A stretch of DNA of 64,000 nt from Burkholderiales bacterium (GTDB lineage: Bacteria; Pseudomonadota; Gammaproteobacteria; Burkholderiales; SHXO01). The translations under genes were made by a program, and so were the position numbers. Below the pieces are notes generated by a model that was not told the DNA's origin, searched no databases, and saw only the letters and a program-made list of their open reading frames with translations. The number at the start of each line of letters is the position of its first letter. Within the stretch, counting starts at the first letter, position 1. The stretch covers positions 65,695 to 129,694 of the forward strand of contig JADZGB010000002.1 of the NCBI GenBank assembly GCA_020854105.1, in the 5' to 3' direction. This document shows, one piece after another, positions 672 through 59,851 of this stretch.

Positions 672-1562
672 TTACTTGCCTCTTTGGGCCATGTACTCCC
701 GAATCTTCGCCGCCTCCGCCGGGTCGATCGGATACATGTGCTCCTCGGCGGGGAACTGCCTTTCCTTCACGTCCTTCACGTAGTCGGTGAGCGCCTGCGT
801 GATGACCTGACCCACATTGGCGTAGCGCTTGGCGAATTTCGGCGAGACGTCGCCGACGAACGCGCCGATCATGTCGTGCAGGATCAGCAACTGGCCATCC
901 ATGTTGCGACCGGCACCGATGCCGTACACCGGCACTTTCAGCGCCTCGCGCACGTAGCTGGCGGGCTCCTCGGGAATCGCCTCCAGCAGCACGAAGGTCG
1001 CGCCCGCTTCCTCGAGCGCCAGCGCATCGTCGAGGATCGATTCGAACTCCGCGCGCGTCTTGCCGTACACGCGGTAGCCGCCGGCCGCCGAGAGGCTCTG
1101 CGGCGTGAGGCCGATGTGACCCATCACCGCGATGCCGGCGTCCGCAATGGCGCGTACGCGCGGTGCCATCTTGCGGCCACCCTCGAGCTTGACGCAGTCC
1201 GCGCCGCCCTCGGCGATCAGGCGACCGGCGTTGATCTGCGCCAGCTCATCGGAGGACTGATACGACATGAACGGCATGTCACCGACGACGAACGCGCTCT
1301 TCGCCCCGCGGCACACCGCCTTGGTGAAGTGCAGCATCTCGTCCATGGTCACCGGCAGCGTGTTCTTGTAGCCCAGCAGGGTCATGCCGCCGCTGTCGCC
1401 GACCAGAATCATGTCGATGCCGGCGGCGTCCGCGAAGCAGGCCGACGGGTAATCGTAGGCGGTGATGTAGGAGGCCGGAATGCCCTTGGCCTTCATCGTG
1501 CGCAGCGCGCCGATGGTGACTTTCTTGCGGGGAGCGGTGGAGGGAGCAGGGGTAGCTGACAT
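672..1562 (-). CDS. panB: 3-methyl-2-oxobutanoate hydroxymethyltransferase
   Basis: This cytoplasmic enzyme of pantothenate (coenzyme A) synthesis transfers a hydroxymethyl group from 5,10-methylenetetrahydrofolate to 2-oxoisovalerate, giving ketopantoate. The protein is 296 residues, slightly above the usual 260-280 because of an Ala/Pro-rich N-terminal tail. The TIM-barrel signatures are present in order: TAYDYPSA, the metal-binding VGDSGGM, VGDMPFMSY, VKLEGG, MGHIGLTPQ, the catalytic glutamate in LLEAIPEE and YGIGAGRNMDGQLL. No panC lies beside it in this window, so it is not in the classical panBC operon here. Confidence 0.96.
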   Translation of the reverse strand: MSATPAPSTAPRKKVTIGALRTMKAKGIPASYITAYDYPSACFADAAGIDMILVGDSGGMTLLGYKNTLPVTMDEMLHFTKAVCRGAKSAFVVGDMPFMSYQSSDELAQINAGRLIAEGGADCVKLEGGRKMAPRVRAIADAGIAVMGHIGLTPQSLSAAGGYRVYGKTRAEFESILDDALALEEAGATFVLLEAIPEEPASYVREALKVPVYGIGAGRNMDGQLLILHDMIGAFVGDVSPKFAKRYANVGQVITQALTDYVKDVKERQFPAEEHMYPIDPAEAAKIREYMAQRGK

Positions 1563-1678
1563 GATGGTCTTCCGTTGTGCCTGTTATGCGGGCTCTCGGT
1601 AGGGTAGCGCGAAGCGCCGAGAAAAGGCTTTCCTTTTGTTCGCTGTTATCGGGAGATGGCGGAAAGGTTTTCCGCCCT

Positions 1679-1752
1679 TGTCGTCATCCCGGCTTATCCC
1701 GTCATCCCGGCTTGCCCTGTCATCCTGGCCCCGTCACACCGGCGCAAGGCGG
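1679..1752. repeat. degenerate extragenic palindrome fragments
   Basis: Three successive copies of the GTCATCCCGGC half-motif, then CACCGGCGCAAGG, lie upstream of panB in the 363-base gap between panB and the next plus-strand gene. They look like remnants of the paired palindrome family seen throughout the window. Confidence 0.55.
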
Positions 1753-1795
1753 TGTCTCTAGCCCCTTCCCAGCGATGGTCTCCGAGCGTACCACT

Positions 1796-1822
1796 CCCGA
1801 AAGACCGCTGTTGTCTTTCGGG
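1796..1822. other. perfect 10-bp stem-loop
   Basis: CCCGAAAGAC (1796-1805) is exactly complementary to GTCTTTCGGG (1813-1822), leaving a 7-base loop. It lies about 100 bases upstream of the antitoxin start and is unrelated in sequence to the window's common palindromes. It lacks a following T-run, so an ordinary intrinsic terminator is not supported. It could be an attenuator, a protein-binding operator or a transcript-stabilising hairpin. Confidence 0.5.
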
Positions 1823-1852
1823 ACTCGGGCGACCGATCAGCCATCGAGGAGC

Positions 1853-1888
1853 CGCAGGCGCCTCGCCCTGTCGCAGGCGCCTCGCCCT
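1853..1888. repeat. 17-bp tandem direct repeat
   Basis: Two identical copies of CGCAGGCGCCTCGCCCT (1853-1869 and 1872-1888) are separated by GT. They lie just upstream of the toxin-antitoxin genes. Each copy contains the palindrome AGGCGCCT, so an operator role for the downstream autoregulated pair is possible but not demonstrated. Confidence 0.55.
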
Positions 1889-1925
1889 TGACCTCTCCGG
1901 TTGTCGGTACTACCGTACGACTACC

Positions 1926-2216
1926 ATGCCCACCGTTGCCACCAGCCTCAAGTTACCCGACGATTTGAAGACCCGGGTCGAAGCCGCTGCGGAAGCGGCT
2001 GGCAAGACGCCACATGCCTTCATGGTCGATGCCATCGAGCGGGAAACTTCGCGCGCCGAGTTGTACGAGACGTTCATCCGGGAGGCGATCGAAGCCGATG
2101 AAGAGGCCGAACGTACCGGCCTCTCTTACGCCGCCGAGGATGTCTACCGTTACATGGCCGACCTTGCCCAAGGCAGAGCGGTCAAGCGGCCGAAGCCCAG
2201 AACTTGGCGCAGGTAA
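1926..2216 (+). CDS. type II antitoxin, ribbon-helix-helix (RelB/ParD-like)
   Basis: A 96-residue protein beginning with the typical ribbon-helix-helix pattern: short beta strand (ATSLKLPDDLK), then two helices (TRVEAAAEAAGKTPHAFMVDAIE). The acidic C-terminal half would wrap and neutralise the toxin. The start ATG at 1926 is preferred over the longer frame because the domain begins there. The next gene overlaps by 13 bases and encodes a RelE/ParE-like protein. By family knowledge, it should bind its own promoter through the N-terminal domain, and the 17-bp repeat just upstream is a candidate site. Confidence 0.85.
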   Translation: MPTVATSLKLPDDLKTRVEAAAEAAGKTPHAFMVDAIERETSRAELYETFIREAIEADEEAERTGLSYAAEDVYRYMADLAQGRAVKRPKPRTWRR

Positions 2217-2497
2217 CGTTTACTGCCACTGCGCTCGAGGATCTCGAGCGCATACGGGAGTTTCACGGGCCGGAAGCGGCTTGCATCGCTGCTGTCCAGA
2301 TCGAGAAGGTGCTCCAGGCCACGCGTATCCTGCATGACCATCCGATGGTCGGCCGGGTGGTACGGCGTGAAGTACGCGAACTGGTGATCTCTCATGGCGG
2401 AGGCGGTTTTCTCGCCTTGTACCGCTTCTATCCGCAGCGCGACCTGGTGCGCGTGCTGCATATTCGGCACCAGCGGGAACTGGGGTACGGTGAGTAG
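2204..2497 (+). CDS. type II toxin, RelE/ParE family
   Basis: A 97-residue RelE/ParE-superfamily protein, with the family features ALEDLERIREF near the N-terminus, a central helix, RVVRREVRELVI, and the C-terminal strand RVLHIRHQRELGY. Members either cleave mRNA in the ribosome or inhibit gyrase, and the sequence alone does not settle which. It starts with TTG at 2204 inside the antitoxin gene, so translation is probably coupled and toxin yield kept below antitoxin. Full length for the family and apparently intact, unlike the similar pair at 5.9-6.3 kb. Confidence 0.85.
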   Translation: MAQVTFTATALEDLERIREFHGPEAACIAAVQIEKVLQATRILHDHPMVGRVVRREVRELVISHGGGGFLALYRFYPQRDLVRVLHIRHQRELGYGE

Positions 2498-2659
2498 TTG
2501 CTCGAGGAGTTCGCGCAGATCGACATGCTATTCGGCATCAGCGGGAACTGGAGTGCGGCGAGTAGGCTGCCTTCGGAATTCTCCGCTCGGACCGGAGGTT
2601 GCCGGCTGTCTCCGCGAGTGGCGCGCGGCAGGTCTGCCGGTTGAGCGAGAGGCGCGACG

Positions 2660-2893
2660 ATGATGTATCAATGGGATGGCTGGCACTTCGGTATCGGTTT
2701 CGGCTGGATCTTCGCCATTTTGTTCTGGGTGGTGATTCTCATCGGGGTTGCCGCGCTGGGCAGGTGGTTCTTCTTCGGGCGTGACGGGCTCGGAGGTCAG
2801 GACCGTCCGCTCGACATCCTCAAGCGGCGATACGCGCGCGGAGAACTTACGCGCGAAGAGTACGAGCAGATGCGCCGCGACATCGAATCGTAG
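2660..2893 (+). CDS. SHOCT-domain small membrane protein
   Basis: A 77-residue protein with one strong transmembrane helix (about residues 16-36), a short linker and a C-terminal SHOCT domain (DILKRRYARGELTREEYEQM), a short motif usually at the C-terminus of proteins and thought to mediate oligomerisation. The family is common in bacterial inner membranes and has no established function. The start has two adjacent ATG codons. The gene end overlaps the aberrant tail of the truncated methyltransferase on the opposite strand. Confidence 0.85.
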   Translation: MMYQWDGWHFGIGFGWIFAILFWVVILIGVAALGRWFFFGRDGLGGQDRPLDILKRRYARGELTREEYEQMRRDIES

Positions 2894-3419
2894 GTCGTCC
2901 CCGATTGGTTTCACTGCAGAAAATCCCGGATGCGTGCTGCCAGGGATTCTCCTCGCGGCGCCGCCAGACGATCTGGGTGAAGCCCCCGCCCGGCTCGAGC
3001 GCCTTGCGGACGTTGCGCATCGCCGCGCCCGGCATCTCGAAGAACATCGTGCCAAAGCGCGCAAATGCGGCGTCATAGGGCCCGCCCAGATCGCCCGACT
3101 GCGCATCGGCAATCAGGAAGTGCGCGTTCGGAACACCTTGCGCGCGCGCCTCGGCTTCAGCGGAGCGGATGAAATTCTCGGCGCAGTCGACTCCGACGGC
3201 TTCTCCCTTGGGGCCGACTCGCTTGGCGATGCGCAGCGTGCTGTCACCGAACCCGCAGCCGACATCCAGCACCCGAGCGCCCTCCGGGTGATGACAGCGC
3301 TCGAAGGCGGCATCGCTGTGCTGCGACAACCCGTTGACGAGCAAGTGCCGGAAGCGGCAGAACTTCTCGTACAGCACTGTATTCCACGCTTCGACGATGA
3401 TGCGGTTGCTGTCGTCCAT
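2847..3419 (-). pseudogene. truncated class I SAM-dependent methyltransferase
   Basis: The N-terminal 150 residues are a normal Rossmann methyltransferase: motif I VLDVGCGFGDS, the acidic residue in VGVDCAENF, and a conserved AFARFGTMFFEMP block. After REENPWQHA the family similarity ends and the frame runs antisense through the SHOCT gene for about 30 unrelated basic residues (CRGASARTLRA). Homologues normally continue for about 80-100 residues, so the 3' end has been deleted. The start at 3419 has GGAGGA six bases upstream. The substrate is unknown and activity doubtful. Confidence 0.75.
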
Positions 3420-3895
3420 GCCGTTCCTCCATCGAGAAATTCTGGAAACCAACGACTACCGGGTTCGATCCTCCATTGTTGGCGCGCGGTGGTAGCGCTC
3501 AGGGATGCAACACGAGCGGGACTACGCTTTACGTCAAAGGACGCATCACACGCGCAGACGAGCGATCCGGGCATTTGCCCCGGGGTCGAGGGGGGAAACT
3601 CGACAAAGGCTAGTGTGATACTCGGCAGTGGGTGCTGCAAGACCCTCACGCCCACTTCGGGAGACACCGCCTCGTCGCGCGCGAGCGCTTATCTGCCCGT
3701 GAGGTTCTCATCACCGTTTGGGTGAGCGTTTCCATTGGTTGGGGTCCGGGGAGCGGATGAGCTGGCGGCGTGCTATTGCGCTGTAATTTCGACCATGCCG
3801 ACCTGAATCCAAGTCTCGGAGCCAGGAGCGCAGAAAGTGCGTGCCTGACCCACTTTCATCTAGAATCGTCGTCAAATTAGAACACCCAGAACGAC
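3420..3895. other. intergenic region without a recognised gene
   Basis: Between the divergent methyltransferase remnant and the restriction remnant, no coding sequence can be supported on either strand. The only structure seen is a 7-bp stem (GAAAGTG at 3833-3839 with CACTTTC at 3851-3857) close to the start of the HsdR-like frame. The last 100 bases are noticeably less GC-rich than the surroundings, consistent with an imported segment beginning here. Confidence 0.5.
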
Positions 3896-12695: not shown

Positions 12696-14249
12696 CTACT
12701 CCTTCTTCCTCTTCTCCACCTTGAACATCCACGCCAGCGGAACCGCCACCGCGGCCGCGATGGCCGACATCGCGAAGGCGTTCAGATAGCCGCCGATCGC
12801 CGCCTGGCGCTCGATCTCGCCTTTGAGCTTGGTCAGGCTCTTTGCCTCGTCCGAGGCCAGATTCTCGGCCAGCGTCGAATAGCCCAGCGCCATGTCCAGC
12901 GACGAGATCGCTGCCGTCAGTCCGGCGTAGTTCTCGGCGGTCGAGCGCACCAGCACGAGCACGCTCACCGAGATGAACAGGCTGCTGCCGAAGTTGCGCA
13001 GCTGGCTGAACACGGCCGAGCCCTGCACCACGAGCGAGTTGGGCAGCGTGGAGAAGGCGAGCACGGTCATCGGCGTGTAAGCCAGGCCGAAGCCGAAGCC
13101 CTGCACGAAGTTGGTCCAGTAGATGTCGAAGTCCGACACGTTGATGTTGAACAGGGTCATGTGCCAGATCGCCCACACCTGCAGCAGCAGGCCGATGGTC
13201 AGCGCGAGCCGGGCGTTGTAGCGGGTGGCCTGCACCACCACCGCGAAGCTGGTGAAGTTGCCCAGCCCGCGCGCGGACATGAGGTAGCCGATCACCGAGT
13301 CGGGGTACTGCCGCAGATCCTGCAGCAGCGGCGGGAACAGCACGAGCAGGGTGTAGCTCAGTGCGCCCATCGCGAACACCACCAGCAGGCCGATGCAGAA
13401 GTTCCAGTCGCGGAACAGGCCGCGGTCGAGGAAGGGCTGGCGCGCCCAGGCGGTGTTGGCGATGAAGATCAGGCCCGCGCCCACGGCGAGGATCAGCTCG
13501 ACGGTGATCTCGGTCGAGTCGAACCAGTCGAGCCGATGGCCGCGATCCATCATGAGCTGCGCGCTGGCCATGCACAGACCCAGCGCGAGGAAGCCAGTCA
13601 GACCCAGCCGGCCGGCCGTGCCGCGCTCCTGGTCGCCGAGCGCGTAGGCAGCCAGCGCCGTGGTCAGCGCGCAGATCGGCACCATGAACAGGAAGGCCCA
13701 GCGCCAGTTCAGCGATTCCGCCATCACCCCGCCGAGGATCGGGCCGAGGGTCGGACCCATCACCGCGCCCGTGCCCCACAGCATCAGCACCAGCGCGTGC
13801 ATGCGCTTGGGAAAGGTCGCCATCAGCATGCCCTGGCCCATGGGCATCAGCGGTGCCCCGAACAGACCCTGCGCCACGCGTGCGAGCAGCAGCGTCTCGA
13901 GCGAGGTCGCCATGCCGCAGGCGAGCGAGGAGAGAGTAAAGCCGGCCAGCACGGTCACCATGAAGCGGCGCCAGCCCAGACGGGCCGCGAGCCAGCCGGT
14001 GAGTGGCGTGACCACCGCGGCGGCCGCCAGGAACAAGGTGACGATCCACGCGCCTTCCTCCTGAGTGAGCGACAGCGCGCCGCGGATTTGCGGCACCACT
14101 ACGTTGGTCGAGGTGATCGCGATGCCGAAGGCGAGCGTGGAGATCTGCACCAGCAGCAGGATCCACCAGCGCTTCGGGTCGAGGGGAGGCTCGGCGTCGA
14201 CGGGGCCGCTGTCGAGCTCGCGTGGGTCGGCGGCCTGGGCGTTACTCAT
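12696..14249 (-). CDS. DHA2-family MFS drug efflux transporter (EmrB-like)
   Basis: A 517-residue inner-membrane proton antiporter with about 14 predicted transmembrane helices. It carries the MFS motif A-like LTGWLAARLGWRRF after helix 2 and the motif C-type region GTGAVMGPTLGPILGG in helix 5, with helix 1 motif ITSTNVVVPQIRGAL. This group (EmrB/FarB type) normally works with a membrane-fusion protein (EmrA) and an outer-membrane channel, but neither is adjacent here. The C-terminus is a short basic tail (VEKRKKE). It is divergent from the DapA-family gene. Confidence 0.9.
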   Translation of the reverse strand: MSNAQAADPRELDSGPVDAEPPLDPKRWWILLLVQISTLAFGIAITSTNVVVPQIRGALSLTQEEGAWIVTLFLAAAAVVTPLTGWLAARLGWRRFMVTVLAGFTLSSLACGMATSLETLLLARVAQGLFGAPLMPMGQGMLMATFPKRMHALVLMLWGTGAVMGPTLGPILGGVMAESLNWRWAFLFMVPICALTTALAAYALGDQERGTAGRLGLTGFLALGLCMASAQLMMDRGHRLDWFDSTEITVELILAVGAGLIFIANTAWARQPFLDRGLFRDWNFCIGLLVVFAMGALSYTLLVLFPPLLQDLRQYPDSVIGYLMSARGLGNFTSFAVVVQATRYNARLALTIGLLLQVWAIWHMTLFNINVSDFDIYWTNFVQGFGFGLAYTPMTVLAFSTLPNSLVVQGSAVFSQLRNFGSSLFISVSVLVLVRSTAENYAGLTAAISSLDMALGYSTLAENLASDEAKSLTKLKGEIERQAAIGGYLNAFAMSAIAAAVAVPLAWMFKVEKRKKE

Positions 14250-14431
14250 GGCCAGGGCAATCGCCAGGGGTGGGCGGCATACGGGGTTGGGCTAGGTGGC
14301 GGCGCGGTACCGGAATGATGGCCCGTCGCTCTCGTGCTGCAGTGGGAGTGTACTGGATACGGGTCCCGCCGCAAGCCGCAACGCTCGCCTGCTAGACTCA
14401 CTGACCTCCAGCATCCACCGGCAATCCACCC

Positions 14432-15334
14432 ATGCCCCTCGCGTTCAAAGGCGTCTTTCCCGCCCCGCCCACTCCCATCACCGACGACGGCCGCGTGCAC
14501 GAGCAGGCGCTGCGTGCGCTGCTCGACGACAACATCCGCCACGGCTGCGGCGGCTTCTGGATGGCCGGCAGCACGGGCGAGGGACCGATCCTCACCGACC
14601 AGCAGCGCGACACCGTCGCGCGCATTTCGGCGGAGGTGTGCAGGGATCGCGCGCTAGTGATCATGCAGGTCGGCTCGATGAGCCAGGCCGGCGCGGTGGC
14701 CGCCGCGAGGAACGCGCGCGCGGCCGGCTGCGCGGCGGTGTGCTGCCTGCCGCCGCTGTTCTTCCGTGCGAGTCAGCGCTCGATCGTGGACTACTACAAG
14801 GCGGTGGCCGAGGCGGGCGGTGAGTTGCCCTTCTTCGTCTACAACCTGCCGCAGCTCACGCAGATCGAGTTCCAGACACCGCTGATGGAGAAGCTCCAGC
14901 GCGAGATCCCGACGCTGAAGGGCCTCAAGCACTCGGCCTGCGACATCACGCAGATCAAGGTGTTCGCCGACATGGGCCTGACGGTGTTTTCCGGCAATGG
15001 TGCCTATCCGCTGCCGGCGCTCACCATGGGCGCGGTCGGCACCATCGATGCGCCGCTCTCGCTCGCGCCGTGGCATTACTCGAAGCTGCACCAGGCGTAC
15101 GAGGCCGGCGACCTCGCAGGCGCGCAGGCGCTGCAGGCCCAGGTGCGCAAGTACGTCGATCTGGTGTGGATGTTCAATGCTCCGGCGGATGTGAGCAAGG
15201 TCGTGCTCACGGCGCGTCTGGGTATCGACTGCGGGCGTTCGATCCCGCCGGTGAACCGACTCAGCGACGAGGAACGGAACGAGGTGCTGAAGGCCGCCGA
15301 GGCGGCGGGGGTGACGCAGGCGCCGGCGGCGTGA
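14432..15334 (+). CDS. dihydrodipicolinate synthase/N-acetylneuraminate lyase family aldolase
   Basis: A 300-residue class I aldolase of the DapA superfamily. It shows the GxxGE signature region (AGSTGEGPIL), the catalytic tyrosine in FFVYNLP and the Schiff-base lysine in LKGLKHSACDITQ. The family forms a TIM barrel and condenses or cleaves pyruvate with an aldehyde. Because many members are sugar-acid or sialate-type lyases and lysine operon context is absent, the exact substrate is not assigned. The two nearby MFS genes are not obviously linked. Cytoplasmic. Confidence 0.88.
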   Translation: MPLAFKGVFPAPPTPITDDGRVHEQALRALLDDNIRHGCGGFWMAGSTGEGPILTDQQRDTVARISAEVCRDRALVIMQVGSMSQAGAVAAARNARAAGCAAVCCLPPLFFRASQRSIVDYYKAVAEAGGELPFFVYNLPQLTQIEFQTPLMEKLQREIPTLKGLKHSACDITQIKVFADMGLTVFSGNGAYPLPALTMGAVGTIDAPLSLAPWHYSKLHQAYEAGDLAGAQALQAQVRKYVDLVWMFNAPADVSKVVLTARLGIDCGRSIPPVNRLSDEERNEVLKAAEAAGVTQAPAA

Positions 15335-15365
15335 CCATGTCATTGCCGGTGCGACGATGTTTTCG

Positions 15366-55836: not shown

Positions 55837-56364
55837 ATGGCAGGCGGGCCGGCAGCGACGAAGGTGATGCGCGCGCTCGTGTGCGCGCTGTGGTGGTGCG
55901 CTGTCCAGCCCGCGCTTGCCGGGCAGTTGTCAGATCTCGCTCTGCAGGTGCAGAGCGAGCGCCAGCAGCTGTCCGAGCGCATGATCCATCAGACCAGCGC
56001 GCAGATCGAGAAGGGCGAGGCCCAGGGCAGCGAGCTGGCCGAGCTGTTCCGCAACCGCGGGGTGGCGCGCAACTACATGCTGCAGTATCCCGAGGCGCTG
56101 CGAGATTTCAGCCGCGCGGTGGAGATCGACCAGGTCAATCCCCAGTACTACGAAGACCGCGCGATCACGCACATCAAGCTGCGCGAATACGAGGCCGCGG
56201 CGCGCGACCTGCACATGGCGCTCGGCCTGGACCCCAAGCGGGCCTCCGCGTACCGTGAGAAGGGGCGGCTCGCCTTCTATCAGAAGGACTTCCACCGCGC
56301 CTCGCAGGAATTCTCGCGCGCGCTGCATAACGCGCGGGGCGAGCAGATCGTCTACACACGCTGA
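55837..56364 (+). CDS. TPR-repeat exported protein, probably 3'-truncated
   Basis: A 175-residue protein with a signal peptide (VCALWWCAVQPALA), an amphipathic helix (AGQLSDLALQVQSERQQLSERM), and three TPR units: AELFRNRGVARNYMLQYPEALRDFSRAVEI, NPQYYEDRAITHIKLREYEAAARDLHMAL and KRASAYREKGRLAFYQKDFHRASQEFSRAL. The frame ends at once after YTR, exactly where the phage-like island begins at about 56365. TPR proteins usually continue with further helices or a capping helix, so truncation by the island is suspected. Four bases separate it from the reductase gene. Confidence 0.75.
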   Translation: MAGGPAATKVMRALVCALWWCAVQPALAGQLSDLALQVQSERQQLSERMIHQTSAQIEKGEAQGSELAELFRNRGVARNYMLQYPEALRDFSRAVEIDQVNPQYYEDRAITHIKLREYEAAARDLHMALGLDPKRASAYREKGRLAFYQKDFHRASQEFSRALHNARGEQIVYTR

Positions 56365-56476
56365 AAAATTGAGGATTGCCGCGAGCCGATGCACACGGCA
56401 CAACGCCGACGTTGTGTTGCTGTGCGAGCACGCAGCAGCGGCTGCGGACAGGCTGGATGTGCTGGAAGAAGAACAC

Positions 56477-57895
56477 ATGCGTTTCTTTGACCGCTGGCAC
56501 GAGGAGCGCAGGAAGCGTGAAGCGATGGCTATGAACCTTCCAGGGCAGGCCCGCAACTACGTCTCGAACAACATGACGATGTACCTGTCCGGGGTGCCGA
56601 TGCATCGGCTGCCGGATCTGAACTTTCGAGCGTGGAAGGAGTACCTGTCGAAGGACAAGCTCTACCAGGACGTCAAGAAGACCGGCATCTTCCACGGCAA
56701 CTTCTCAGTGCAGGAACTTTCTCGAGCCAGACGGGAGATCGTGGACCTCGAGCACAAGACCCGCGGCTTCAAGCCGCTTCGAAAGCTGATCTTCCTCGCG
56801 GAGAAGGCACAGGACATTGCGGGCGATGTGTACGGCGTGGTCGAGGGCGTGCTCAAGATGGCCATGGTCATGGACCACATCGAGCGCCTGGGCATGTCGC
56901 TGGAAGATGCCGCTCAGGAGGCCGATGCATGGCTGTTCGACTACAGCCTGGTGCCGCAGTGGGTACGAGCGGCACGTGGATCTCCGGTGATGGGTGCGCC
57001 ATTCCTGACGTTTCAGTACAAGATACTGCCCAAGCTCGTGGAAGCGGCGCTGTTGCGCCCGCACCGGCTGGTGCTGTCGTGGGCGGCCTTCAAGGCTGCA
57101 GCGATCGCCGCAGCGCTTGCGCTCGACGTCGATGATGACGACCTCGACAAACTCAGGAAAGCCCTCCCGAAGTGGCTGCAGGATCAGGACTCGGTGCTGT
57201 TCATCCCATACCGCGACGAGAACGGTCGCTGGACCTTTCTGAACCTGTCCTACTTCATGCCGTGGAGCTACTTCACCACATTCGCCAAGGATGCCTGGAG
57301 CGTCGCTAAGGACGTCGGGACCGGCGGGGCCGGTGTAGGGAAGGTCAACGAACTGGTCGGAGGTGCCGGGATCGGCGGGCCGTTTCTGACGCTCTACTCG
57401 GCGCTCACCACGAACATCGATCCGTTCACCAAGCGCGAGATCACCACGAAAGGGGCGCCGGCGAGCATCCAGCTTATCGAGTTGCTGAACTACGCCTGGG
57501 ACTTCATGGCGCCGCCCATGCTCGGCTCCCGGGGCTTCGTGTCCCCGATGGCGCTGGTAGACCCCATGTACGGCGGCAAAGCCGTCCAGGCGCTCACCGG
57601 GGCCGAGAACCGCTTCGGCGATCCTCGGTCCACGATGGCGCAGGCGATCCTGTCCTTGGGTGGGCTGAACGTCTATCCGATCAACCCTCAGCAGTCGCGC
57701 AATCAGAACATACTGCGCATGAGCCGCGAGATCGAAGACGTGAAGATGTCCGCGCGCAAGTTCCTCACGGACACGTCGCTGTCCCCTGAACGTCGGCAGG
57801 CGCTGTTCGACAAGCACAGCGCCGAGGCCAACCGGCGCACGGAGATCCTGAACGACTACATCAAGGAATCCGAGGTGCCCTACGCCTTGCGCTGA
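56477..57895 (+). CDS. phage-like large polyvalent protein, C-terminal fragment (LPD38-like)
   Basis: The frame is open from the end of the TPR gene; ATG 56477 is used but the true N-terminus is missing. The 472 residues contain GQARNYVSNNMTMYLSGVP, the helix-rich AEKAQDIAGDVYGVVEGVLKMAMVMDHIE, APFLTFQYKILPKLVEAALLRPHRLV, WLQDQDSVLFIPYRDENGRWTFLNLSYFMPWSYF and a C-terminal LINPQQSRNQN. This resembles the C-terminal region of giant phage polyvalent proteins (LPD38-type domain), which are made with the virion and injected. No other structural phage gene is here, so it is a remnant. Confidence 0.65.
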   Translation: MRFFDRWHEERRKREAMAMNLPGQARNYVSNNMTMYLSGVPMHRLPDLNFRAWKEYLSKDKLYQDVKKTGIFHGNFSVQELSRARREIVDLEHKTRGFKPLRKLIFLAEKAQDIAGDVYGVVEGVLKMAMVMDHIERLGMSLEDAAQEADAWLFDYSLVPQWVRAARGSPVMGAPFLTFQYKILPKLVEAALLRPHRLVLSWAAFKAAAIAAALALDVDDDDLDKLRKALPKWLQDQDSVLFIPYRDENGRWTFLNLSYFMPWSYFTTFAKDAWSVAKDVGTGGAGVGKVNELVGGAGIGGPFLTLYSALTTNIDPFTKREITTKGAPASIQLIELLNYAWDFMAPPMLGSRGFVSPMALVDPMYGGKAVQALTGAENRFGDPRSTMAQAILSLGGLNVYPINPQQSRNQNILRMSREIEDVKMSARKFLTDTSLSPERRQALFDKHSAEANRRTEILNDYIKESEVPYALR

Positions 57896-58334
57896 ACGCC
57901 AGCCACGCCAGCGGCAGCAAGGCCAAAGAATCTGGCTCTGGCAGTTCCGAGACTTGATACGTCCCAAAGTAGTCCACTCTATCCGGCACTGCTATCGTGT
58001 GCCTGTATGTCCCATCCTCGGAGAGATAAAGCGTTGAATGCCCGGGCGATCGGACGGTGGCTGTGAGGTTCTCGATCCCAGTGAAGAAAACGCCTAGCAC
58101 ATCATTGAAGAAGAAGCCCTCTTCTGGCATGACGTGCATCAAGCAATCATCGCTGCTGACGCCAGTTTCAGGATCGACACCGATCTCTGGGCATGTTCCA
58201 ACCGTCGCGGAGAAAGCAATCACCCGCCCGTCGACAACTTCGAAAGTGCCGACTTGAGACTGGCCGCTGAATGAGATATTCAGTGCAGATGCATTGAAGG
58301 AAATACAAAGCAACAGCAGTCCGAGCGGCCGCAT
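57861..58334 (-). CDS. PEP-CTERM sorting-domain secreted protein
   Basis: A 157-residue protein with a signal peptide (LGLLLLCISFNASA), a beta-rich mature part with three cysteines (TCPEIGVDPETGVSSDDC) and an exact C-terminal sorting signal: Pro-Glu-Pro (LPEPDS), a hydrophobic stretch (LALLPLAWLAF) and basic SARRRAP. Such proteins are processed by exosortase and usually go to an extracellular matrix or polysaccharide layer. No exosortase gene is in this window. It lies inside the phage-like island as possible cargo and overlaps the end of the polyvalent fragment tail-to-tail. Confidence 0.75.
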   Translation of the reverse strand: MRPLGLLLLCISFNASALNISFSGQSQVGTFEVVDGRVIAFSATVGTCPEIGVDPETGVSSDDCLMHVMPEEGFFFNDVLGVFFTGIENLTATVRSPGHSTLYLSEDGTYRHTIAVPDRVDYFGTYQVSELPEPDSLALLPLAWLAFSARRRAPRIP

Positions 58335-58395
58335 GATGGTCTCCCTTCTTCTTGGTTGGAGAACCTATCCTAGCAAATTCTGTCGCCAGGATGCG

Positions 58396-58761
58396 TCAGG
58401 CGCCTCCTTCTTCACAAGTTGGCGGATGGGATCTATCCAGTAGCGCGTGAGTTTCGTCCAGCATCTCTGGCGTCGGGTCCATGTCGTTCTGCCACTTGCG
58501 CAGCCAGCGGACGCACAGAGTCTTCAGGGCGTCGCGTTCCTTGGTTACGGCATCCATTGTCTGCTGCGAGTATCCGACACCACGCCTAAGCAACATCTCA
58601 TTTTCCTCGCGCAGCCTTTCGACTTCCGCCGATAGAATCTCTGCAACATCCACGCTGCCGTACCCACTGCCGGTCATGTCATCATCTTCGTCAGTCTGGC
58701 CGGCGATCTCGTAGCAAAGGCTCCTTGCCAGCACTATGCTGCCTCGCTTGATGTTACTCAT
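58396..58761 (-). CDS. hypothetical phage-type protein
   Basis: A 121-residue soluble protein with an acidic segment (AGQTDEDDDMTGSGYG), a coiled-coil (AEILSAEVERLREENEMLLRR, KERDALKTLCVRWLRKWQ) and no known domain. Its start at 58761 has a good AGGAG and overlaps the end of the upstream gene by 8 bases. It is the last member of the tightly packed string on this strand. It resembles small phage replication-region proteins, but no family is assigned. Confidence 0.6.
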   Translation of the reverse strand: MSNIKRGSIVLARSLCYEIAGQTDEDDDMTGSGYGSVDVAEILSAEVERLREENEMLLRRGVGYSQQTMDAVTKERDALKTLCVRWLRKWQNDMDPTPEMLDETHALLDRSHPPTCEEGGA

Positions 58762-58966
58762 CGTTGGCTCCTGATGTGTGAAGCGCAACAGCCATTTGTC
58801 TCTCTATGTGCTCCTCTTTGTCGGGGTGCTTGCGGTTCCAACTCCAGTCCCCGATTAAATAACGATAGCCGTATGTGTCCGTTCCGATGCGCTGTAGCCC
58901 ATGCTTCCCGTTCTTGAGATACCAAAAGACTTCGTCCTGCATGAGTTTAACGGTCGATTCCTTCAC
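58754..58966 (-). CDS. small hypothetical phage-type protein
   Basis: A 70-residue protein, KESTVKLMQDEVFWYLKNGKHGLQRIG followed by TYGYRYLIGDWSWNRKHPDKEEHIE. It starts at GTG 58966, overlapping the stop of the 29-residue ORF by 4 bases (GTGA), with GGAGGG immediately upstream. Aromatic and charged residues suggest a small folded domain. No family is recognised. Confidence 0.55.
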   Translation of the reverse strand: MKESTVKLMQDEVFWYLKNGKHGLQRIGTDTYGYRYLIGDWSWNRKHPDKEEHIERQMAVALHTSGANDE

Positions 58967-59052
58967 CCCTCCCTCCCTTCCTTGATGGCGGCGTCTAGGT
59001 GTTCTGCTCGGAGCTGCCTCAGCCGCTCCACCAACTCCCGGTAGTCGCTCAT
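58963..59052 (-). CDS. 29-residue micro-ORF in the overlapped string
   Basis: ATG 59052 overlaps the stop of the upstream gene (ATGA) and encodes a short helical peptide (MSDYRELVERLRQLRAEHLD followed by AAIKEGREG), ending where the next gene's GTG begins (GTGA). Perfect linkage to both neighbours, amphipathic-helix composition and the phage-type small-gene setting support that it is translated. Too short for usual gene finders. Confidence 0.6.
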   Translation of the reverse strand: MSDYRELVERLRQLRAEHLDAAIKEGREG

Positions 59053-59273
59053 TCAGGCTTCTCCGCCAGTCCGCGCCATTGGTCGAAACTCCATACCCAC
59101 AGCCATTCTCTGTCTCTAGTCCATGCGTCAACCCCATCCCACCAAGCCATAAATGGCTTTGAGTGCGCGCCATCTTTTGACCAGTTTATCCACCTAACCT
59201 CGTACCATCCTGGTAGAGATGGCGGTGCGGCAATCGAAAACCACGGGGATCGCTTGCGGTTGGAGGGGGTCAT
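59049..59273 (-). CDS. small phage-type protein with GWYEVRW motif
   Basis: A 74-residue protein rich in Trp (nine), with PGWYEVRWINWSKDG, FMAWWDGVDAWTRDREWLWV. The start (ATG 59273) overlaps the stop of the GIY-YIG gene (ATGA), and the stop overlaps the micro-ORF start (ATGA). The PGWYEVxW...WWDGxxW layout recalls small phage proteins of the DUF551 type. Function unknown. Confidence 0.65.
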   Translation of the reverse strand: MTPSNRKRSPWFSIAAPPSLPGWYEVRWINWSKDGAHSKPFMAWWDGVDAWTRDREWLWVWSFDQWRGLAEKPE

Positions 59274-59791
59274 TGAGGCTCCACTACGGCGGCAAGCTGT
59301 AGTTCAGGCTGCGCTCGGATCAGCCCGTCTACTTTCTTGTTTAGTGGTGGATTGAATAGGTGGATGTACGCCCTTTCCAGTCGCCCGAGTTCTTCGCGGC
59401 CACACTCAATCCAACTGACCGCATCAAACTGGATAGCCCCTTTCTCCGCGTGTTGCCCAAGCCGGCGAAAGATGTTGATGCTCTGCCCGACGTACACGAC
59501 CTGCTTTTGCAGGAAAAGGAAATACACACCGCACAGCCCGCCCCAAGAGAACGAACGCCCAACGATCCCGGCCAAGCTAAGAAGCTCGCATCCAGTGGTT
59601 CTCTCGATTTGCTCTTTCGATCTACTAAGAAGATTCATCTCTTCCGAGATTCTGATGGCCGTCTCTAAGTCGCTGCCAAGCGGGATTGCTTCTTTGCCGT
59701 AGTAGTATCTGGCGCTTCCGTTTTTATTTCGGATGACGTGCATGTACTTCGGCAGGTTGAGATGAGCGTGCGAAGTTCTTTTGCGTCCCAT
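59270..59791 (-). CDS. integrase-arm-like/GIY-YIG chimeric phage protein
   Basis: A 173-residue protein. Residues 1-55 (MGRKRTSHAHLNLPKYMHVI, NGSARYYYGKEAIPLGSDLE) resemble the N-terminal arm-type DNA-binding domain of phage integrases. Residues about 85-165 carry a GIY-YIG fold: CGVYFLFLQKQVVYVGQSINI (GxY-11x-YxG), RRLGQHAEKG, and WIECGREELGRLERAYIHLFNPPLN with a Glu in the catalytic helix. This combination is unusual. It would give a nuclease guided to attachment-like DNA. It heads the overlapping five-gene string and is probably inherited with a phage. Confidence 0.65.
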   Translation of the reverse strand: MGRKRTSHAHLNLPKYMHVIRNKNGSARYYYGKEAIPLGSDLETAIRISEEMNLLSRSKEQIERTTGCELLSLAGIVGRSFSWGGLCGVYFLFLQKQVVYVGQSINIFRRLGQHAEKGAIQFDAVSWIECGREELGRLERAYIHLFNPPLNKKVDGLIRAQPELQLAAVVEPQ

Positions 59792-59851
59792 TTTGTGAAT
59801 TACTCGTTCACTAAGCGGCAAGGTGTGTCCGGTAAATTGCATTAAAAGCAA

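Follow-up and report, generated by a model that had tools for sequence, protein, structure and literature searches.

A GIY-YIG nuclease fused to a predicted integrase arm domain, a candidate attachment-site nuclease of phages

The nearest precedent in principle for the gene described here is Odn (Gp88) of the Vibrio phage ICP1. This nuclease of the GIY-YIG superfamily shares its DNA-binding domain with the replication initiator of a rival and cuts the rival's origin (PMC8263062). Its counterparts in coliphages, and T5orf172 nucleases with other swapped binding domains, have been surveyed (PMC10448857). The present fusion likewise joins a nuclease of the GIY-YIG superfamily to a DNA-binding domain that seems to have come from a mobile element's core protein. 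In Odn the borrowed domain directs cleavage to the donor protein's own site, and the same is presumed for the fusion. The parts themselves differ: Odn combines RepA_N with T5orf172 and cuts satellite replication origins, whereas the fusion carries an integrase arm and its presumed site is attP. Neither T5orf172 nor RepA_N gives a Pfam match in the fusion or in its viral relative. The fusion may work like Odn without being a member of the Odn type.

T4 Seg and I-TevI (PMC2988022, PMC1564403) share with the fusion the GIY-YIG fold, the catalytic residues, a separate DNA-binding module, and a free-standing gene that overlaps its neighbor. Their modules are typically of the NUMOD or HTH/zinc-finger kind and lie C-terminal to the nuclease, whereas the fusion has an N-terminal integrase arm and its homing is proposed. 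The sheet-plus-helix fold of the AP2 type resembles an integrase arm domain. HNH-AP2 homing endonucleases (PMC10448857) also pair a nuclease with a small sheet-plus-helix DNA-binding domain; their nuclease is HNH, whereas that of the fusion is GIY-YIG, and the AP2 family has no Pfam match in the protein.

Two further groups each resemble one half of the protein. Lambda-type tyrosine integrases (PF09003; 1kjk, 2wcc) have a homologous N-terminal domain with the same position and fold; core-binding and catalytic domains follow their arm, whereas a nuclease stands there in the fusion. Integrase arm domains such as that of lambda Int read the arm sites of att. The plasmid and phage proteins named “GIY-YIG nuclease family protein” (e.g., WP_003829093.1, beside trbI and kfrB) have the same GIY-YIG module and the LL-EIV segment preceding it, but their N-terminus is of the TPEERK type plus a coiled coil, or another, where the protein studied here has an integrase arm. 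Chimeric homing-type GIY-YIG nucleases are known, and a recognition module derived from an integrase arm was not found described before in the open-licence literature, where text searches met no report of a fusion between an arm and a GIY-YIG domain. The word “integrase” is absent from the 2006 survey of GIY-YIG architectures (PMC1564403).

A two-domain fusion gene in a prophage remnant

The window, the whole stretch of 64,000 nucleotides that was analyzed, contains the fusion gene near one end of a short phage-derived fragment (Table 1). A sequence-only reading of the window had described the ORF at 59270-59791 as integrase-arm-like at its N-terminus and GIY-YIG at its C-terminus. Both the coordinates and the strand are borne out, with an ATG at 59791 and a stop codon at 59270-59272 on the minus strand. 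The 173-residue product is a genuine two-domain fusion, on which sequence profiles and predicted structure agree. The stop codon of the fusion gene overlaps the ATG of the 74-aa ORF that follows it, which makes the gene part of an operon of small phage-like genes on the minus strand. No good ribosome site is seen upstream of it, and only ~60 bp separate its start from the sufU-like gene on the other strand.

Table 1. Coordinates of the fusion gene, its parts and its surroundings, and of the viral gene block with the second fusion
Feature	Position	Strand	Basis or remark
Fusion gene, integrase-type arm domain + GIY-YIG nuclease, 173 aa	59270..59791	(-)	ORF list, Pfam, arm HMM, full-length model
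Predicted arm-type DNA-binding domain, residues 1-55	59627..59791	(-)	strands 17-21, 27-31, 36-39; helix from 42
Residues 56-86: end of long helix (42-66) + LL-x-x-x-x-I-V segment common to GIY-YIG relatives	59534..59626	(-)	
Predicted GIY-YIG catalytic domain, residues 86-153	59333..59536	(-)	Pfam, relatives, full-length model
Small phage-like ORF, 74 aa, ATG overlapping fusion stop (ATGA)	59049..59273	(-)	ORF list
Inserted phage-derived fragment (3.5 kb) between truncated TPR gene and sufU-like gene	56365..59851	.	boundaries from same-genus genome
C-terminal part of large phage virion protein	56417..57895	(+)	kin of 2166-aa late protein, podovirus ctwe8250, 28.6% over 80% of 456-aa query
Small ORF of fragment, strand as fusion gene, no family match	58396..58788	(-)	
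2,267-bp xis-int-nuclease block, viral contig L318 (IMGVR_UViG_3300046500_000041)	13094-15360		different metagenome from L319
2,267-bp xis-int-nuclease block, viral contig L319 (3300046810_000282)	1455-3721		different metagenome from L318

On profile and model evidence, residues 1-55 are the arm-type DNA-binding domain of lambda-type tyrosine integrases, and binding is predicted. A search of 300 genomes from the order with residues 1-66 gave, once the query itself was set aside, mostly the N-termini of ORFs of 340-411 aa as its best matches, with alignments beginning at residue 1 or 2. These ORFs are tyrosine recombinases by sequence and Pfam. As a guard against circularity, an independent arm HMM was built from the N-termini of 64 integrases gathered through their catalytic core, without the window protein. 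This HMM gives the window protein 30.7 bits (E 1.4e-7), reaches at best 13.0 bits on 10,000 shuffled N-termini, and matches none of 73 GIY-YIG relatives. An arms-only integrase HMM whose set was chosen with the query gives 44.7 bits (E 3e-12). Against the whole PDB, the arm profile returns the arm structures of lambda Int first (1kjk, E 1.9e-6). A Pfam scan does not report PF09003 in the window protein, i.e., the gathering score is not reached; this miss reflects the cut-off of one profile rather than a biological feature, and the homology rests on the other evidence. The Phage_integrase catalytic domain PF00589 is absent from the 173-aa protein in the Pfam scan, so the protein is not a whole tyrosine integrase. 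A short open frame of 59 aa (L017; G134:C15:6557-6706) consists of an integrase arm domain alone (MGRKPTVNLNLPKGM...) and is either a piece of an int or an orphan arm protein.

The predicted fold points the same way. The two domains were modelled from separate alignments, and the model of residues 1-66 consists of three strands and a helix. Among 898 chains, its ranks 1-6 are all integrase arm domains, with Z from 6.1 to 4.2: lambda Int 1z1b (Z 6.1) and 1kjk (Z 5.9, rmsd 1.6 over 45), lambda 2wcc, 1z1g, and 5j0n, and then the HAI7 arm domain 3ju0. P4-like arm domains stand at ranks 11 and 13. Values of Z between 4 and 6 are modest, as expected of a 50-residue domain, and the ranking agrees with the sequence evidence. 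In the full-length model, whose alignment held no arm sequences, residues 8-75 still match lambda Int (1z1g, Z 4.6). Foldseek alone gives weak E-values on the small arm domain (best lambda match 0.31), and the fold assignment is carried by VIA-align and the sequence profiles rather than by Foldseek.

The C-terminal part scores 25.7 bits with Pfam PF01541, above the cut-off of 22.6 (E 1.5e-5, residues 87-122). Among GIY-YIG relatives, Y90, Y100, R110, H114, and E139 are invariant and N151 is nearly so; the motifs common to them are G-V-Y-F-L, V-Y-V-G-Q-S, R110, H114, E139, and N151. The catalytic Tyr, Tyr, Arg, Glu, and Asn are all present in the window protein (Y90, Y100, R110, E139, N151). 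Just before the nuclease, relatives read LL-x-E-x-E-I-V and the window protein LLSLAGIV. The full-length model has a pLDDT of 84, with values >92 over most of the GIY-YIG domain, and matches the GIY-YIG domain of UvrC (1yd6, Z 11.0) and I-TevI (1ln0, Z 9.1). Given the catalytic residues and the model fold, the nuclease looks competent and cleavage is predicted. The sequence-only reading had named both halves from short motifs. Its arm layout (MGRKR, LPKYM, YYYGKEAIPLG) is right by the integrase profiles; fold prediction, which it had named as the test that could refute it, makes the N-terminal segment an integrase arm closest to lambda Int; and its GIY-YIG C-terminus holds by Pfam, catalytic residues, and a UvrC/I-TevI fold.

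The gene lies in a prophage remnant. Relative to a same-genus genome, ~1.2 kb up to the sufU-like gene are replaced by 3.5 kb of DNA of lower G+C (0.50-0.64 vs 0.60-0.71 in the flanks). The TPR-repeat gene at 55837-56364 has lost its 3′ part; it is full-length in the same-genus genome, and the lost part was not found elsewhere in the window's own genome. The fragment starts inside the large virion gene and ends just upstream of the fusion gene, and in the podovirus ctwe8250 late plus-strand genes likewise meet minus-strand early genes. Beside the fusion gene there is no int and there are no att repeats, the fragment ends show no convincing att-like repeats, and no tRNA was found. The genome has four tyrosine recombinases, and an arm search in it finds only the fusion itself, with no partner integrase of the same arm. 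The int of the remnant, if ever present, is gone. The window copy is probably a silent member of its kind, stranded in a phage remnant with its upstream context lost.

Two observations concern the same interval. The fragment contains a PEP-CTERM-like secreted ORF (57861-58334). In the same-genus genome (G003, L148), the interval between the TPR and sufU-like genes holds unrelated DNA with a minus-strand, possibly exported ORF, and the interval may be an insertion hotspot.

A second fusion and the relatives of the nuclease

Viral contigs were scanned with the full-length query first in the alignment. The 80 loci read, the best 80 of ~259 viral relatives, were then scored with the arm HMM, which makes the number of viral fusions a lower bound. 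Two contigs, IMGVR_UViG_3300046500_000041 and 3300046810_000282, encode a second fusion, a 192-aa protein whose N-terminal arm domain (residues 1-65) is joined to the same GIY-YIG module. In this protein Pfam reports both PF09003 (44.2 bits, cut-off 22) and PF01541 (22.7 bits, cut-off 22.6). It is 32% identical to the window fusion, with the key positions and the domain order shared, and its arm part finds phage integrases (E 8e-4 to 5e-3) when the whole protein is searched with tblastn. A search for the same fusion in phages, suggested in the sequence-only reading, therefore has a positive answer in these two viral contigs and a negative one in 50,697 phage records; 72,556 plasmid records also lack the fusion.

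In orthologue searches across 60 relatives, 369 genomes from the same class, and 398 from the same phylum, the window's own fusion was the sole one. Exact-peptide scans with the window protein gave no match in the genome and viral collections. At least two distinct fusions are known, both from draft or metagenomic sequence and with the best 80 of ~259 viral relatives read. A common origin of the two is not rejected (p-AU 0.79). The fusion architecture is not a one-off.

This second fusion bears on whether the window gene is a mere accident, a functionless product of illegitimate joining between the 5′ end of an int and a GIY-YIG gene while a prophage decayed. The remnant around the window gene is indeed only 3.5 kb long and includes a truncated virion gene, and the window gene has no close relative and has lost its upstream operon. 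However, a diverged fusion with the same domain order occurs in viral contigs beside an intact int, both fusions keep an open frame, the arm core, and the catalytic residues, and the junction is clean and falls at a domain border. An accidental origin without function is thus improbable.

GIY-YIG relatives were found in phages, in mobilizable plasmids, and in 80 IMG/VR contigs (the best 80 of ~259). Apart from the second fusion, their N-termini are of the TPEERK type with a coiled coil, or others, rather than integrase arms; members in Sinorhizobium and Pseudomonas phages have yet other N-termini. Most phage relatives (L034-L113) begin with TPEERKAIAAKSVATRxxN followed by a predicted coiled coil, and the one tested has no Pfam match. 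This part may serve the relatives for DNA binding, and the arm domain would have taken its place in the fusion. One locus (L260), whose match extended over residues 1-170, was rejected as a fusion and has the usual TPEERK-type N-terminus.

The viral gene setting and a possible action at attP

The viral genes are ordered excisionase (Exc/Xis, PF07825), integrase, fusion. The contig belongs to a phage, because it carries endolysin and Rz-spanin genes. The integrase is a full-length lambda Int homologue, with 36% identity over all 361 residues and its own PF09003 arm, and the first base of the fusion's ATG is also the last of the int stop codon (1-bp overlap). Five bp after the fusion stop begins a tandem 11-bp repeat of three units (TGAGTTTTGCC, TGAATTTTGCC, TGAATTTTGAA), the like of which occurred in 0 of 1000 shuffles. 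In contig IMGVR_UViG_3300046810_000282 this repeat occupies 3503-3533. A lambda relative whose genes run xis-int has three tandem repeats of 12-13 bp (AGTTTTGGGGAA type) starting 10 bp downstream of int, and this is the place of the P′ arm sites in lambda attP. The viral 11-bp repeats are positional analogues of arm-type sites only. By that position, the viral fusion gene appears inserted between int and what looks like attP.

The xis-int-nuclease block is 100% identical in the two viral contigs, and its left flanks differ. Close kinship between the phage populations, instead of homing, could account for this identity. No DNA relatives of the int-nuclease module were found in phage records. 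Contig L318 continues for 188 bp beyond the tandem repeat and stops there, possibly at the core of attP. In L319, a 19-nt inverted repeat (GAATTTTGAACAG...CTGTTCAAAATTC) at 3526-3582 directly follows the tandem array, perhaps as further arm sites or a terminator.

The preferred reading, held at a probability of about one half, is a free-standing phage nuclease of the homing or interference type that acts at attP and carries an integrase arm in place of the usual N-terminus of the phage and plasmid GIY-YIG family. A nuclease with a separate predicted DNA-binding module, genes overlapping their neighbors, and a phage operon make up the layout of free-standing homing endonucleases, which the fusions share. 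Overlapping, promoter-less placement is typical of those of T4, for which overlapping frames, the distance from cut to insertion, and co-conversion are described (PMC2988022). The sequence-only reading had suggested, as a possibility, a nuclease for homing or for attachment sites whose DNA recognition is borrowed. As a hypothesis this gains real support from the second fusion, which lies between a lambda-type int and a tandem-repeat array where attP arm sites would be expected.

The arm could instead be only a convenient DNA-binding module. The protein would then be a GIY-YIG homing endonuclease of the ordinary kind, with a target that has nothing to do with attachment sites. This family swaps its N-terminal parts freely, as the Sinorhizobium and Pseudomonas phage members illustrate, and the window gene is not next to an int. 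The precise place of the viral fusion between a lambda-type int and arm-like tandem repeats argues against it, as does the known reading of att arm sites by the arm of lambda Int, and this explanation is considered unlikely.

A regulator of integration or excision is less likely again. Such a protein would occupy arm sites against Int or Xis, and its nuclease would nick attP or resolve intermediates. In the viral contigs the fusion gene shares an operon with xis and int, which fits this role, and competition for arm sites could come from an arm domain acting in trans. However, lambda-type systems work without such a protein, and an active nuclease at a phage's own attP would be costly. Nor are the arm-less GIY-YIG relatives linked to integrases, with one weak match in 80 loci (the best 80 of ~259).

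For a homing-type nuclease acting at attP, a sequence of steps can be proposed. The arm domain would dock on arm-type (P′-like) sites in the attP of the phage's own family. The GIY-YIG domain would then cut nearby in phages or prophages whose int abuts attP without a nuclease gene. Repair would copy the nuclease together with the flanking int/att module, as in intronless homing; alternatively, the rival would simply lose its integration site. In the carrier, the docking and cutting sites would be kept apart by the nuclease gene itself, inserted between int and the repeats, and the carrier would thereby be protected.

More broadly, and somewhat more tentatively, the fusions may represent a new class of att-site-directed phage nucleases. 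These would use integrase arm-site recognition to cut the attP or prophage att ends of related phages, and a gene placed between int and attP would protect its carrier. In this way they would drive the exchange of integration modules or keep out superinfecting temperate phages.

Temperate phages exchange integrase modules at high rates. If the proposal is true, a nuclease led to att sites by an integrase domain that it has borrowed would drive this exchange directly, and would also be a weapon between prophages. The fusion offers a compact, testable pair of recognition and cleavage functions. The principle of Odn, a nuclease guided by a rival's own DNA-reading domain, would then extend from replication origins to integration sites.
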